Shown piece after piece: positions 24,739-27,899 of a stretch of DNA of 64,000 bases. The position numbers and the translations under genes are program-made. Position 1 is the stretch's first letter. The number at the start of each line of letters is the position of its first letter. This DNA is from Maridesulfovibrio salexigens DSM 2638 (GTDB lineage Bacteria > Desulfobacterota > Desulfovibrionia > Desulfovibrionales > Desulfovibrionaceae). The DNA is taken from NCBI RefSeq assembly GCF_000023445.1, contig NC_012881.1, forward strand, positions 3,799,501 to 3,863,500, given 5' to 3'. The notes beneath the pieces are model-generated. The model ran no database searches. It was not told the origin of the DNA and saw only the letters and a list, made by a program, of their open reading frames with translations.

Positions 24739-25572
24739 TTAATTATTTTTTGATTCTTGTCCGGCAGGACTTTCTTTTCCCATAGGGCAGGTGCTGAAAT
24801 TTTCTTCCACATCCTCAAGGCAGTTTTCTTTAATTTCAGCAATGAAAAGCTCCACCAACTCAGGATCAAGAGAATGGCCAGCAAGCTTGCGCAGGATGGA
24901 ATATGCTTTTTCCAAATCCATAGCTTCCTGATAACTGCGGGTGGTAGTTACCGCATCAAATACATCGGCGATGGAAAGGATACGTGACCCTGTCTTAATT
25001 TCATCGCCCTGCAAGCCGTTTGGATAGCCAGTACCATCCAGACGCTCATGATGTGACCGCATATACTCCAAGGCAGGGCCGAGAAAATCCAGCCCGCGCA
25101 GCATCTTAAATCCCCATTCCGGGTGCTGCTTGATCTCCGCCAGCATATCCTCATCAACCTTGGTATCCACATTTTGGATCAAGCGGTCACTGAAACCGAT
25201 TTTGCCAATGTCATGCAAAGTCCCGGCAACATGCACAGTCCAGATTTCATCTTCGGAAAGCCCCATCCTACGGGCTAAACGCTCACAATAAAGCCCCACC
25301 CGCTCCGCATGTCCACGTGTATACGGATCGCGCAGGCTCAATCCGCGCGCAACAGCCTTAACGGTTGCTACCACATTGCACTTAAGTTCCTCATTCGCCT
25401 GCTCAAGCGCAAACTCACGAGCCTCAATACGGACCATCATCAAACCCACGGATTCCGCCAGTTCCCGTACATAGGGATCATATTCATCAGTAGTCAGATG
25501 CATGATGTCATTGGAATAATTACCGCCGGAAATATCCTGAATACAGGCAAGAAGTTCGGTGAGTCCTTTCAT
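24739..25572 (-). CDS. HD-GYP domain protein (probable cyclic-di-GMP phosphodiesterase)
   Basis: 277-residue protein. The N-terminal 65 residues are helical and end in a coiled coil (EAREFALEQANEELK), reminiscent of a HAMP exit or a dimerisation stalk. The HD-GYP domain follows with GHAERVGLYCERLARRMGL, GTLHDIGKIGFSDRL, and the diagnostic HHERLDGTGYPNGL. All metal and GYP residues are present, so hydrolysis of cyclic di-GMP is likely. No membrane helix or receiver is fused to it, so how it is switched is unclear. Confidence 0.92.
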   Translation of the reverse strand: MKGLTELLACIQDISGGNYSNDIMHLTTDEYDPYVRELAESVGLMMVRIEAREFALEQANEELKCNVVATVKAVARGLSLRDPYTRGHAERVGLYCERLARRMGLSEDEIWTVHVAGTLHDIGKIGFSDRLIQNVDTKVDEDMLAEIKQHPEWGFKMLRGLDFLGPALEYMRSHHERLDGTGYPNGLQGDEIKTGSRILSIADVFDAVTTTRSYQEAMDLEKAYSILRKLAGHSLDPELVELFIAEIKENCLEDVEENFSTCPMGKESPAGQESKNN

Positions 25573-25691: not shown

Positions 25692-25750
25692 TCAATTATT
25701 CCATTAGAGCGATAAAAAATATTCTACTAGAATAATTCTAGTAGAATATT
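25692..25750 (-). repeat. Flanking repeat B with 33-base palindrome, downstream of the AAA ATPase gene
   Basis: From 25718 to 25750 the sequence is a perfect palindrome with 16-base arms around one base (arm AATATTCTACTAGAAT). It abuts the ATPase stop codon at 25751. On the minus strand it ends in a run of T, so it can serve as a terminator. The whole unit aligns without gaps to the upstream copy at 26882-26940, with 45 of 60 bases equal over the two blocks and 27 of the last 30. Confidence 0.85.
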
Positions 25751-26872
25751 TTAAAAAGTTCTGACCAGCCACCTTCTGAAGACAGGATCAACAAGTTCCC
25801 AGCCGTTTTCTTCATTGCTGACCAAGTCCTGTATACTGAGATGTTTCAAGGCCTTTTGGACTCCACCTGACGATAGATTCGTTTCCTTCAAAAACACCTG
25901 AGAAGTAACCTTGCTTCCCGGATATTTTGCCAATCCCACCAACAAAGACAGTTGTACCGGGGTTAAGCCGTCTACGATCCCCTGATAGGAATATCTCTCG
26001 CTCGCTAGAAGTGATTCAAAACATTCATCAACATCATCAAGGCTGGGGTTGTCCCTCATGCTGAAAAGCAAATAGCTGAAAAGCTGTGCGTAATAAGGAT
26101 ATTGATGAACAAGATTTGAAACAGCAGCAGCTGCTTCGTGCGAAATGGACTTACCGCCCTTACTGAAAAGCTCAACAATATATTCCACAAGATCTTCATG
26201 TGGTAGCGGAGGAAGTTCCATCAAAAGAGTGCTATTGTAGAAAGGACGATGCCTATCAGTAAACATAGACTTGAGGATACGCCGCCTGCTACCCGCAAAG
26301 ATATACCCCGCCCCATGCATCTGGATATGGGTTCGCAGTATAGCTTCCGTCTTACCCTTGTCCACCTCCACAATATCCTGAAACTCGTCCATGGCTATGT
26401 GCACAGGCTTATCCGACTTCTCGGTAAACTTTCCTATCTCGGAAAGCAGAGATTCAAGCAGGTCATACCCGGAAATACCTTCAGTAGCACGGACATCAAT
26501 CTGAACTCCCCCTTCTTCAGTAGGAGTAAAAACAGGACGATAGGTCTTGAAAAAATCAAGCAGAGCCTTTTTGCCTTTTTCGAAAAAAGAAACATATTCG
26601 CTCAAACCTTCATACACAGCCCTTGCCAGTCTCGAAGCAAGATCCTCAACCGACATAACCCTGTAAAAATCGACATAAAAGACATAGGCGCCCTTATCAT
26701 GCATTTCTTTCTGGGCACGTTTAATCAACGATGTTTTCCCGTACCTACGAGGAGAGAAGAGCGTTACGTTCGCACCATTCATGCCGTGTAAAATGAGATC
26801 AGTAAGTTCCTTTTCACGGTCACAAAACGGATCACTTGGTCGCAAGGTATTAAAACGGAAAGGATTATTCAT
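25751..26872 (-). CDS. Archaeal-type AAA ATPase with C-terminal winged helix (COG1672-like)
   Basis: 373-residue P-loop ATPase. The N-terminus NPFRFNTLRPSDPFCDREKEL is the family entry motif; Walker A is SPRRYGKTS (Lys46), Walker B HIAMDEFQDI (Asp162, Glu163), and GSRRRILKSMF contains the arginine sensor region. The C-terminal 80 residues are a winged helix (LTPVQLSLLVGLAKYP, LSSGGVQKALKHLSIQDLV). The start is the ATG at 26872, with GGAG seven bases before it. Function of this family is not established. It stands alone, bracketed by two copies of an AT-rich palindromic repeat, one just upstream of its ribosome site and one touching its stop codon. This suggests self-control or a mobile unit. 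Confidence 0.85.
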   Translation of the reverse strand: MNNPFRFNTLRPSDPFCDREKELTDLILHGMNGANVTLFSPRRYGKTSLIKRAQKEMHDKGAYVFYVDFYRVMSVEDLASRLARAVYEGLSEYVSFFEKGKKALLDFFKTYRPVFTPTEEGGVQIDVRATEGISGYDLLESLLSEIGKFTEKSDKPVHIAMDEFQDIVEVDKGKTEAILRTHIQMHGAGYIFAGSRRRILKSMFTDRHRPFYNSTLLMELPPLPHEDLVEYIVELFSKGGKSISHEAAAAVSNLVHQYPYYAQLFSYLLFSMRDNPSLDDVDECFESLLASERYSYQGIVDGLTPVQLSLLVGLAKYPGSKVTSQVFLKETNLSSGGVQKALKHLSIQDLVSNEENGWELVDPVFRRWLVRTF

Positions 26873-26881
26873 AACATACTC

Positions 26882-26940
26882 CAAAATATTCTAATAGAGC
26901 ATCAAATTTTATTCTCTTAGAATTATTCTAGTAGAATATT
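26882..26940 (-). repeat. Flanking repeat A, upstream of the AAA ATPase gene
   Basis: Same orientation as repeat B and 1200 bases from it. It shares the ATTCTAGTAGAATATT arm exactly. Its other arm, TATTCTCTTAGAAT, has two mismatches to the perfect form. A third half-site, AATATTCTAATAGAGC, lies next to the ribosome site. The promoter of the ATPase gene must lie in or beside this repeat. Confidence 0.8.
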
Positions 26941-26972
26941 TAAATTTGTCAATTAACCTAATCCACAAAAAA

Positions 26973-27002
26973 AACTCCCTGCCTCAACCGAGACAGGGAG
27001 TT
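26973..27002 (-). terminator. Intrinsic terminator of folD
   Basis: Arms AACTCCCTG / CAGGGAGTT around a 12-base middle that can pair further; a T-run follows on the minus strand. Confidence 0.88.
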
Positions 27003-27038
27003 CTTTCAAAACTTCAAAACACGCATATAACCAATAAA

Positions 27039-27899
27039 TTAAGCCCCGACATGCTCCTTATAAGCCTGTACGGTGTTGATCAGCAGCTGAGCGATGGTCA
27101 TGGGACCTACTCCGCCGGGAACAGGGGTCATGGCGGATGCTACGTCTTCCAGTGCTGCGTAATCACAGTCACCGACCAGACCTTCGTCAGTGCGGTTGAT
27201 GCCTACATCAACTACGACTGCGCCGTCTTTGACCATCTCTTTCTTGATGAATTTGGGAATGCCGATGGCGGCGAAAACGAAATCCGCGGCTTTGACTTCC
27301 TCAGCGAGATTGTCAGTGCGGGAATGGCAGACAGTTACGGTGGCGTTTGCGAAATCACCGTACTGCATGAGCATCATGGCAAGGGGCTTACCAACGATGT
27401 TGGAACGACCTACTACAACGGCTTTCTTGCCGGAAGTGGGCAGGTTGTAGCGTTCCAGCAGGGTGATGATACCTGCGGGAGTGCAGGAACGGAAACCGGG
27501 CAGGCCGAGCATGAGCTTACCTACGTTCATGGGATGGAAGCCGTCCACATCCTTGCCGGGATCAATGAGTTCGAGGCAGCGTTGGCTGTCGAGTCCCTTG
27601 GGCAGGGGCAGCTGCAGCAGGATACCATCGATGGTGTCATCTGCGTTGAGCTTCTGGATCAGAGCCTCAAGTTCTTCCTGAGAAACGGATGCATCGATAC
27701 GGTGTGCAGTGGAAACGATTCCTGCTTTCTCGCAGGCGATTTCCTTGTTGCGAACATATACCTGAGATGCGGGGTCCTCGCCGACCAGAATAACGGCCAG
27801 ACCGGGCGCTCTGCCGTGTTTTTCTTTAAGTCCGTCTATCTCTACTTTCAGCTCTTCACGAATAGTAAGAGCTGTTTCTTTACCATTCAAAATCTGCAT
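27039..27899 (-). CDS. folD: Methylenetetrahydrofolate dehydrogenase / methenyltetrahydrofolate cyclohydrolase
   Basis: 286-residue bifunctional enzyme linking 5,10-methylene-THF to 10-formyl-THF for purine and formyl-Met synthesis. Family blocks are [20 protein letters not shown] (with the catalytic lysine), [18 protein letters not shown] and [15 protein letters not shown]. The NADP-binding loop is [16 protein letters not shown]. It is a single gene with its own terminator. An AGAAATTTC stretch stands before the ATG. Confidence 0.97.

Follow-up and report, generated by a model that had tools for sequence, protein, structure and literature searches.

A stand-alone SSO1545-type ATPase gene of Maridesulfovibrio salexigens very probably repressed by its own product through a private, co-evolving operator

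In a 64,000-nt stretch of DNA from Maridesulfovibrio salexigens DSM 2638 (hereafter the window), an ATPase gene lies on the minus strand between two genes that we take to be folD (upstream) and the gene of an HD-GYP protein (downstream), and is bracketed by two direct repeats (Table 1). What these repeats are for is the question raised by the locus: the original prediction had proposed either that they are sites through which the winged helix of the ATPase controls its own gene, or that, as the ends of a unit, they allow gain and loss of the gene. The repeats proved real, with the same orientation, a length of 61 nt each and 48 of 61 positions identical. The ATG of the gene, and not the TTG from which the ORF was listed, is the start common to close orthologues. 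A second folD-like sequence was seen as fragments in two genomes (G009:C4:446404-446761 and G014:C13:49662-49763), where a full-length folD is also present.

Table 1. Features of the ATPase locus, in window positions
Feature	Position	Strand	Details
AAA+ ATPase with C-terminal winged helix, 373 aa	25751..26872	-	ATG 26872, stop TAA 25751-25753; ORF listed from TTG 26884
Codons of the predicted recognition helix, residues 334-345 (SSGGVQKALKHL)	25838..25873	-	top covariation window of 121; helix in the structure model; translation
Putative upstream operator array	26884..26944	-	sites 26925-26937 (ATTCTACTAGAAT), 26911-26923 and 26888-26900; steps of 14 and 23 nt
Sigma-70-like promoter	26925..26952	-	-35 TTGACA 26952-26947, 16 nt, -10 TAGAAT 26930-26925
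Downstream array	25694..25754	-	sites 25735-25747, 25721-25733 and 25698-25710; same steps of 14 and 23 nt
Inverted repeat between folD and the upstream array	26969..27006	-	probably the terminator of folD, at the border of that gene
Upstream neighbour, presumably folD	27039..27899	-	ORF list
Downstream neighbour, presumably HD-GYP protein gene	24739..25572	-	ORF list

The prediction of an ATPase with a winged helix held, with domain scores just below the Pfam cut-offs: PF01637 (ATPase_2) reached 32.2 bits against a cut-off of 33.2 (33.3 bits with the neighbouring stretches in frame), and a MarR_2 winged helix was placed at residues 302-354 with 25.9 bits (cut-off 27). A profile of 40 sequences matched two archaeal AAA+ ATPases of PF01637 over their full length, namely 2FNA (SSO1545; E=2e-23, positions 7-367 of 376) and 2QEN (a Walker-type ATPase of Pyrococcus abyssi; E=3e-17); the single window sequence, searched without a profile, found neither. 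Residues R42, R43, G45 and K46, and D162, E163 and Q165, which we take to be those of Walker A and B, are invariant in the 40 sequences. Full-length homology to solved members and the presence of the Walker residues indicate that the gene encodes an SSO1545-type AAA+ ATPase. A structure model built from three sequences had low overall confidence (mean pLDDT 58.7); its C-terminal part scored better, was the only part used and contains a helix at residues 335-345 followed by strands at 351-354 and 357-360. In a fold search with this weak model, 2QEN and 2FNA were the first two hits, followed by ORC/Cdc6 structures. PADLOC and NCBIfam yielded no family for the window protein at E<=0.001.

The unit of both arrays is an imperfect 13-base palindrome (ATTCTAnTAGAAT). 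At the stop codon, where a perfect palindrome of 33 bases (16+1+16) had been described, the palindrome is present and actually longer, comprising 18+1+18 bases at 25716-25752 (37 bases) and overlapping the TAA. The 16-base arm is shared by both repeats as described, with exact copies at 25718 (+), 25735 (-) and 26925 (-), and two mismatches are indeed present in the upstream partner arm; the reported agreement at 27 of 30 bases was reproduced as 26 or 27, depending on the frame end. With up to three mismatches the arm matched seven times, whereas 100 shuffles averaged 0.25 matches. The proposed search of the host genome located the exact 13-mer ATTCTANTAGAAT at three places in 4.29 Mb, all at the ATPase locus, and at one mismatch four single sites were found elsewhere; forward matches in the whole genome numbered 8 in all, versus 10 for a reversed control pattern. 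The upstream copy overlaps the promoter-like sequence of Table 1 (score 11/12, the best of the region), the -10 box of which sits inside the operator. Two weaker promoter-like sites lie inside the ATPase gene, and since the total of three is no higher than in shuffles (3.2), the promoter is called from its position and from the pattern in the family. The downstream array contained no promoter-like site.

Altogether, 91 homologues were collected. Five had flanks that were too short, and the 86 with at least 100 nt of upstream sequence were scored for three half-sites, of which two face each other and the third is a repeat, at permitted spacings of 13-16 nt and against 100 dinucleotide shuffles per locus. 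At p<=0.05 an upstream operator lay no more than 100 nt from the start in 54 of the 86, and at p<=0.01 in 25. The same score downstream was significant in 2 of 86 at p<=0.05 (the window locus and L015) and in 2 of 86 at p<=0.01, and 15 of 155 control genes were also significant at p<=0.05, a count that includes at least three ATPase operators that had slipped through the filter (L060, L141 and L142). Grouped by identity to the window protein, upstream operators were found in 3/3 loci at >=85%, 7/8 at 44-60%, 9/23 at 38-44% (the worst group), 14/20 at 33-38%, 8/12 at 29-33% and 13/20 at 20-29%. Direct half-site spacing in the 54 significant loci was 14 nt in 41, 15 nt in 12, 16 nt in one and 13 nt in none; 14 nt was also the spacing in 22 of the 32 homologues that missed p<=0.05. 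By eye, some of these 32 (L087, L088 and L122) show palindromes of a different layout, and some (L117, L119 and L136) apparently have no palindrome.

The spelling of the operator varies by lineage. Sites of the ATTCTAnTAGAAT type occur here, and inspection by eye gave TATTGn5CAATA in the clade of a 47% identical paralogue that the window genome also holds, and TTACA/TGTAA, TGACA, TTACGC, ATTATGC and more in others. The position relative to the promoter recurs across the family: the operator overlaps the -10 box in 48 of all 60 scored loci and in 27 of the 32 with a promoter score of at least 8, and random placement gave a mean of 14.9 and a maximum of 24 in 2000 trials, under a null that ignores the AT-richness of operator and -10 box. 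Overlap with the promoter of its own gene is what is expected of the operator of a self-repressor. Where two paralogues share a genome (n=7 pairs), their operators were more similar than the mean for equal identity in five pairs and less similar in two; the idea that operators are chosen against paralogue cross-talk was rejected, as no sign of avoidance was seen.

Covariation of operator and protein was examined in 80 of the 91 loci (those with complete protein and upstream sequence), with 3014 of the 3160 pairs having an AAA-domain identity below 0.5. Operators were more alike where identity in residues 334-345 was higher (partial r=0.28, p=0.001); the correlation is modest, and apart from what the covariates absorb, the pairs lack phylogenetic independence. 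With controls for composition and GC the helix retained a partial r of 0.21 (p=0.0005), against -0.001 for the rest of the winged helix and a small remaining signal of 0.086 for the AAA domain; for the 56 loci with operators at p<=0.06, the corresponding values were 0.24, 0.035 and 0.135. When windows of 12 residues were scanned along the protein, residues 334-345 ranked first of 121 (0.20) and the top four windows overlapped the helix, the next best outside it being at residue 25 (0.11). One homologue from another genus (L080, 39-40% identical) reads GGAQKALK against GGVQKALK in the window protein, and also has ATTCTAnTAGAAT-type sites. Covariation thus suggests that the operator is specified by the protein's own recognition helix.

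Covariation and operator position together make the ATPase very probably its own repressor, acting through a private operator that co-evolves with it; this estimate refers to the self-repression core, excluding the loop considered below. The comparison of homologues strongly favours the self-control by the winged helix that had been envisaged, through arrays at the gene start, their overlap with the -10 box, a near-fixed spacing and the covariation of the helix. As a stand-alone SSO1545-type AAA+ protein, the ATPase would read the palindromic half-site with residues 334-345 of its winged helix, and a few molecules would occupy the array over its own -10 box, closing the promoter as the protein builds up. 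We infer that the protein binds and represses, and that nucleotide state or oligomerisation governs its binding. That some other regulator of the host binds the operators instead is very unlikely, as their spelling follows the recognition helix of the ATPase itself and the exact sites occur nowhere else in the genome; arrays do persist in two genomes without the ATPase at the respective locus (G004 and G008), and these may have or gain other users. No wider regulon was seen for the clade-1 motif in the window genome or the 17 genus genomes, and the clade-2 motif occurred only at its own genes and in one orphan array of G008, apart from one control hit in G013. The ORC/Cdc6 structures found behind 2QEN and 2FNA with the weak model might recall an Orc1/Cdc6-like initiator with origin boxes, a reading that is exceedingly unlikely given arrays on the gene's promoters in many family members, a homologue at E<=1e-20 in just 32 of the 348 genomes of the order (own genome counted), and two paralogues with differing sites in one chromosome.

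Each of the three close orthologues (G000, G003 and G010) carries the second array downstream, and at two loci of other lineages (L099 and L110) the respective operator is repeated downstream of the gene; as three of these five loci are close orthologues, the independent cases number three. A test for a far-end copy was significant (p<=0.05) downstream in 6 of 55 loci (these five and L020) versus 1 of 53 upstream, leaving 49 of the 55 relatives tested without a significant copy. A half-site matrix applied to up to 300 nt downstream gave 9 of 55 loci at p<=0.05, including the same five at p=0.003, while controls gave 3 and 0 of 60 gene bodies and 2 and 1 of 59 upstream stretches at p<=0.05 and p<=0.01, respectively. 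L020 was significant in the far-end test and not with the matrix, and by the general three-half-site score L015 was significant downstream, L006 (p 0.13) and L007 (p 0.47) not. The simplest reading of the second, promoterless array, and the one that we prefer as a guess, is that of an auxiliary operator: the ATPase would hold both arrays together, looping out about 1.2 kb and so tightening repression. With 49 of 55 loci lacking a downstream array, looping cannot be general.

Dual use of the downstream copy as a terminator, also suggested originally, is possible in the window, where the palindrome as RNA folds with -18 kcal/mol (z -7.6) and terminates in a run of six U, four of which are base-paired. 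The terminator pattern scan did not call it, however, and a GC-rich hairpin distinct from the array stands before it in G003 and G010. In G004, moreover, the array has been retained without the gene, so the palindrome being simply a terminator that owes its likeness to the operator to local duplication is unlikely, though compatible with self-repression. Equally compatible, and about as doubtful, is an array that serves the next gene, the ATPase also controlling the HD-GYP gene. The array does lie just upstream of that gene in the window and in G004, but in G003 and G010 an opposite-strand ORF (L053 11195-12385 and L054 2702-3892), which to us resembles an iron-containing alcohol dehydrogenase, stands between the two. 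There, as in L099 and L110, the downstream copy lies between convergent ORFs and so is no neighbour's promoter.

As an alternative, the repeats could bound a mobile element of a single gene or serve as att-like sites for its gain and loss; this reading was rejected after a search for arrays in the genome and 17 genus genomes and a reading of four gene-less junctions, and is highly improbable. It would agree with the differing presence of the gene among close relatives, the ATPase being present at the folD/HD-GYP junction in G000, G003 and G010 and absent in G004, G008, G011 and G012, and with the different genomic places of the paralogue clade within the genus. Tandem sites, however, were confined to the folD/HD-GYP locus, in 4 of the 17 genus genomes, and the several copies or dispersed ends of a mobile element were not seen in this search. 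The better inverted than direct alignment of the G003 arrays (36 versus 31 of 50 nt), which could suit element ends, is not general either, since relative orientation differs among species: the G000 arrays align better directly (39 versus 29), and those of G010 are near even (37 direct, 35 inverted). The same 49 of 55 loci have no significant far-end copy, and no recombinase-like ORF was found by eye between the arrays.

Comparing the junction in strains without the gene, as had been recommended, revealed no clean empty site: none of the four gene-less junctions reads as a clean excision between repeats. In G004, another ORF occupies the junction, and a remnant of the ATPase terminator (recognised by eye) has been kept together with the downstream array (three pattern sites with 0, 2 and 3 mismatches, and two more degenerate ones by eye), contrary to repeat-to-repeat excision. 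One site is left in G008 (2 mismatches), and the junctions of G011 and G012 have no site at <=2 mismatches. G002 and G006 likewise have an HD-GYP match near folD and no ATPase match between the two, and their motif scans were empty at <=2 mismatches. We argue that these scars point to ordinary deletion and replacement, against excision between repeats, and they show that arrays can outlive the ATPase gene. The folD/HD-GYP junction looks like a minor hotspot. The junction ORFs of G004 (L036 2467-3129) and G011 (L035 789-1418), of 220 and 209 aa, are alike by eye, each with an N-terminal membrane stretch followed by a coiled coil.

The paralogue lies by a gene that we take to be hypF in G000 and G011, and appears to do so in G003 and G010 from short flanks. 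In G008, an orphan array of the paralogue type (L155 5110-5165, G008:C1:557610) stands by the presumed hypF without an ATPase, with a 264-aa ORF beside it. Homologues are distributed patchily, occurring (own genome counted) in 18 of 58 genomes at E<=0.001 and in 39 of 395 genomes of the phylum at E<=1e-25, and distant homologues were found on 72 plasmid records (E<=1e-5). A viral origin of the family was rejected, with one locus in viral contigs (from a single peptide-pattern scan), two phage records and no PHROGs match. On one contig of the viral collection (L144) a homologue stands beside two ORFs that look integrase-like to us, and in G015 (L056 3307-6215 and 9058-9456) a paralogue-clade ATPase is near what we presume to be a Cas2-like ORF and a transposase-like fragment. 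A toxin-antitoxin module would be expected to include a co-transcribed partner; on the downstream side, no co-directional ORF lies within 100 nt at 56 of 71 loci, the window locus included. A sensor or defence role of the ATPase, offered as a guess, would fit the patchy distribution and the NLR/Orc-like fold.

Within the open literature covered, we found no report of self-regulation in the SSO1545/PF01637 family, and open papers yielded no role for these ATPases themselves. The window ATPase differs from SSO1545 and 2QEN in its inferred DNA target and self-control, neither of which we found reported for those two in open papers. The closest parallels differ in architecture. According to the accessible part of its description, IniR is a mycobacterial signal-transduction ATPase with an N-terminal AAA+ domain resembling sso_1545 that binds a promoter; it differs in its 818 aa, MalT-like domain, SdiA-like DNA-binding domain and induction of other genes (PMC5760070). 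The antitoxin AbiEi, in the portion available, regulates itself negatively via several inverted repeats in its own promoter, but belongs to a two-gene toxin-antitoxin system, unlike the lone ATPase with a DNA-reading domain in the window (PMC7319586). Cdc6/Orc1 and NB-ARC/NLR proteins have been placed in one structural family, with SSO1545 named within it, and act in origin binding or immune signalling, the accessible text describing no private self-operators (PMC4599002). Among defence systems, DefensePredictor DS-8 combines a NACHT domain with a metallophosphatase domain, as far as the available part of the source states (PMC13092281); the DS8 and DS41_1 models of the systems DS-8 and DS-41 were each weakly matched by 6 of the 40 aligned relatives (best 5.8e-7 and 8.9e-8, respectively), and the window protein matches no NCBIfam model at E<=0.001.

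A wider and speculative possibility, which we hold with little confidence, is a widespread one-gene family of NLR/Orc-like AAA+ ATPases with a private operator code that co-evolves with them and, in some lineages, flanking arrays, in which the oligomer loops its own gene and the ATP state opens it, possibly as a sensor released by phage or stress. As judged from sequence comparison, the SSO1545/PF01637 family would gain a concrete candidate activity, sequence-specific reading of DNA combined with self-repression. The locus would also add, from bacteria, an NLR/Orc-like module whose winged helix apparently recognises a specific DNA sequence, and the family would offer a natural recognition code in which, over dozens of related genes, about 12 residues are linked to a half-site.
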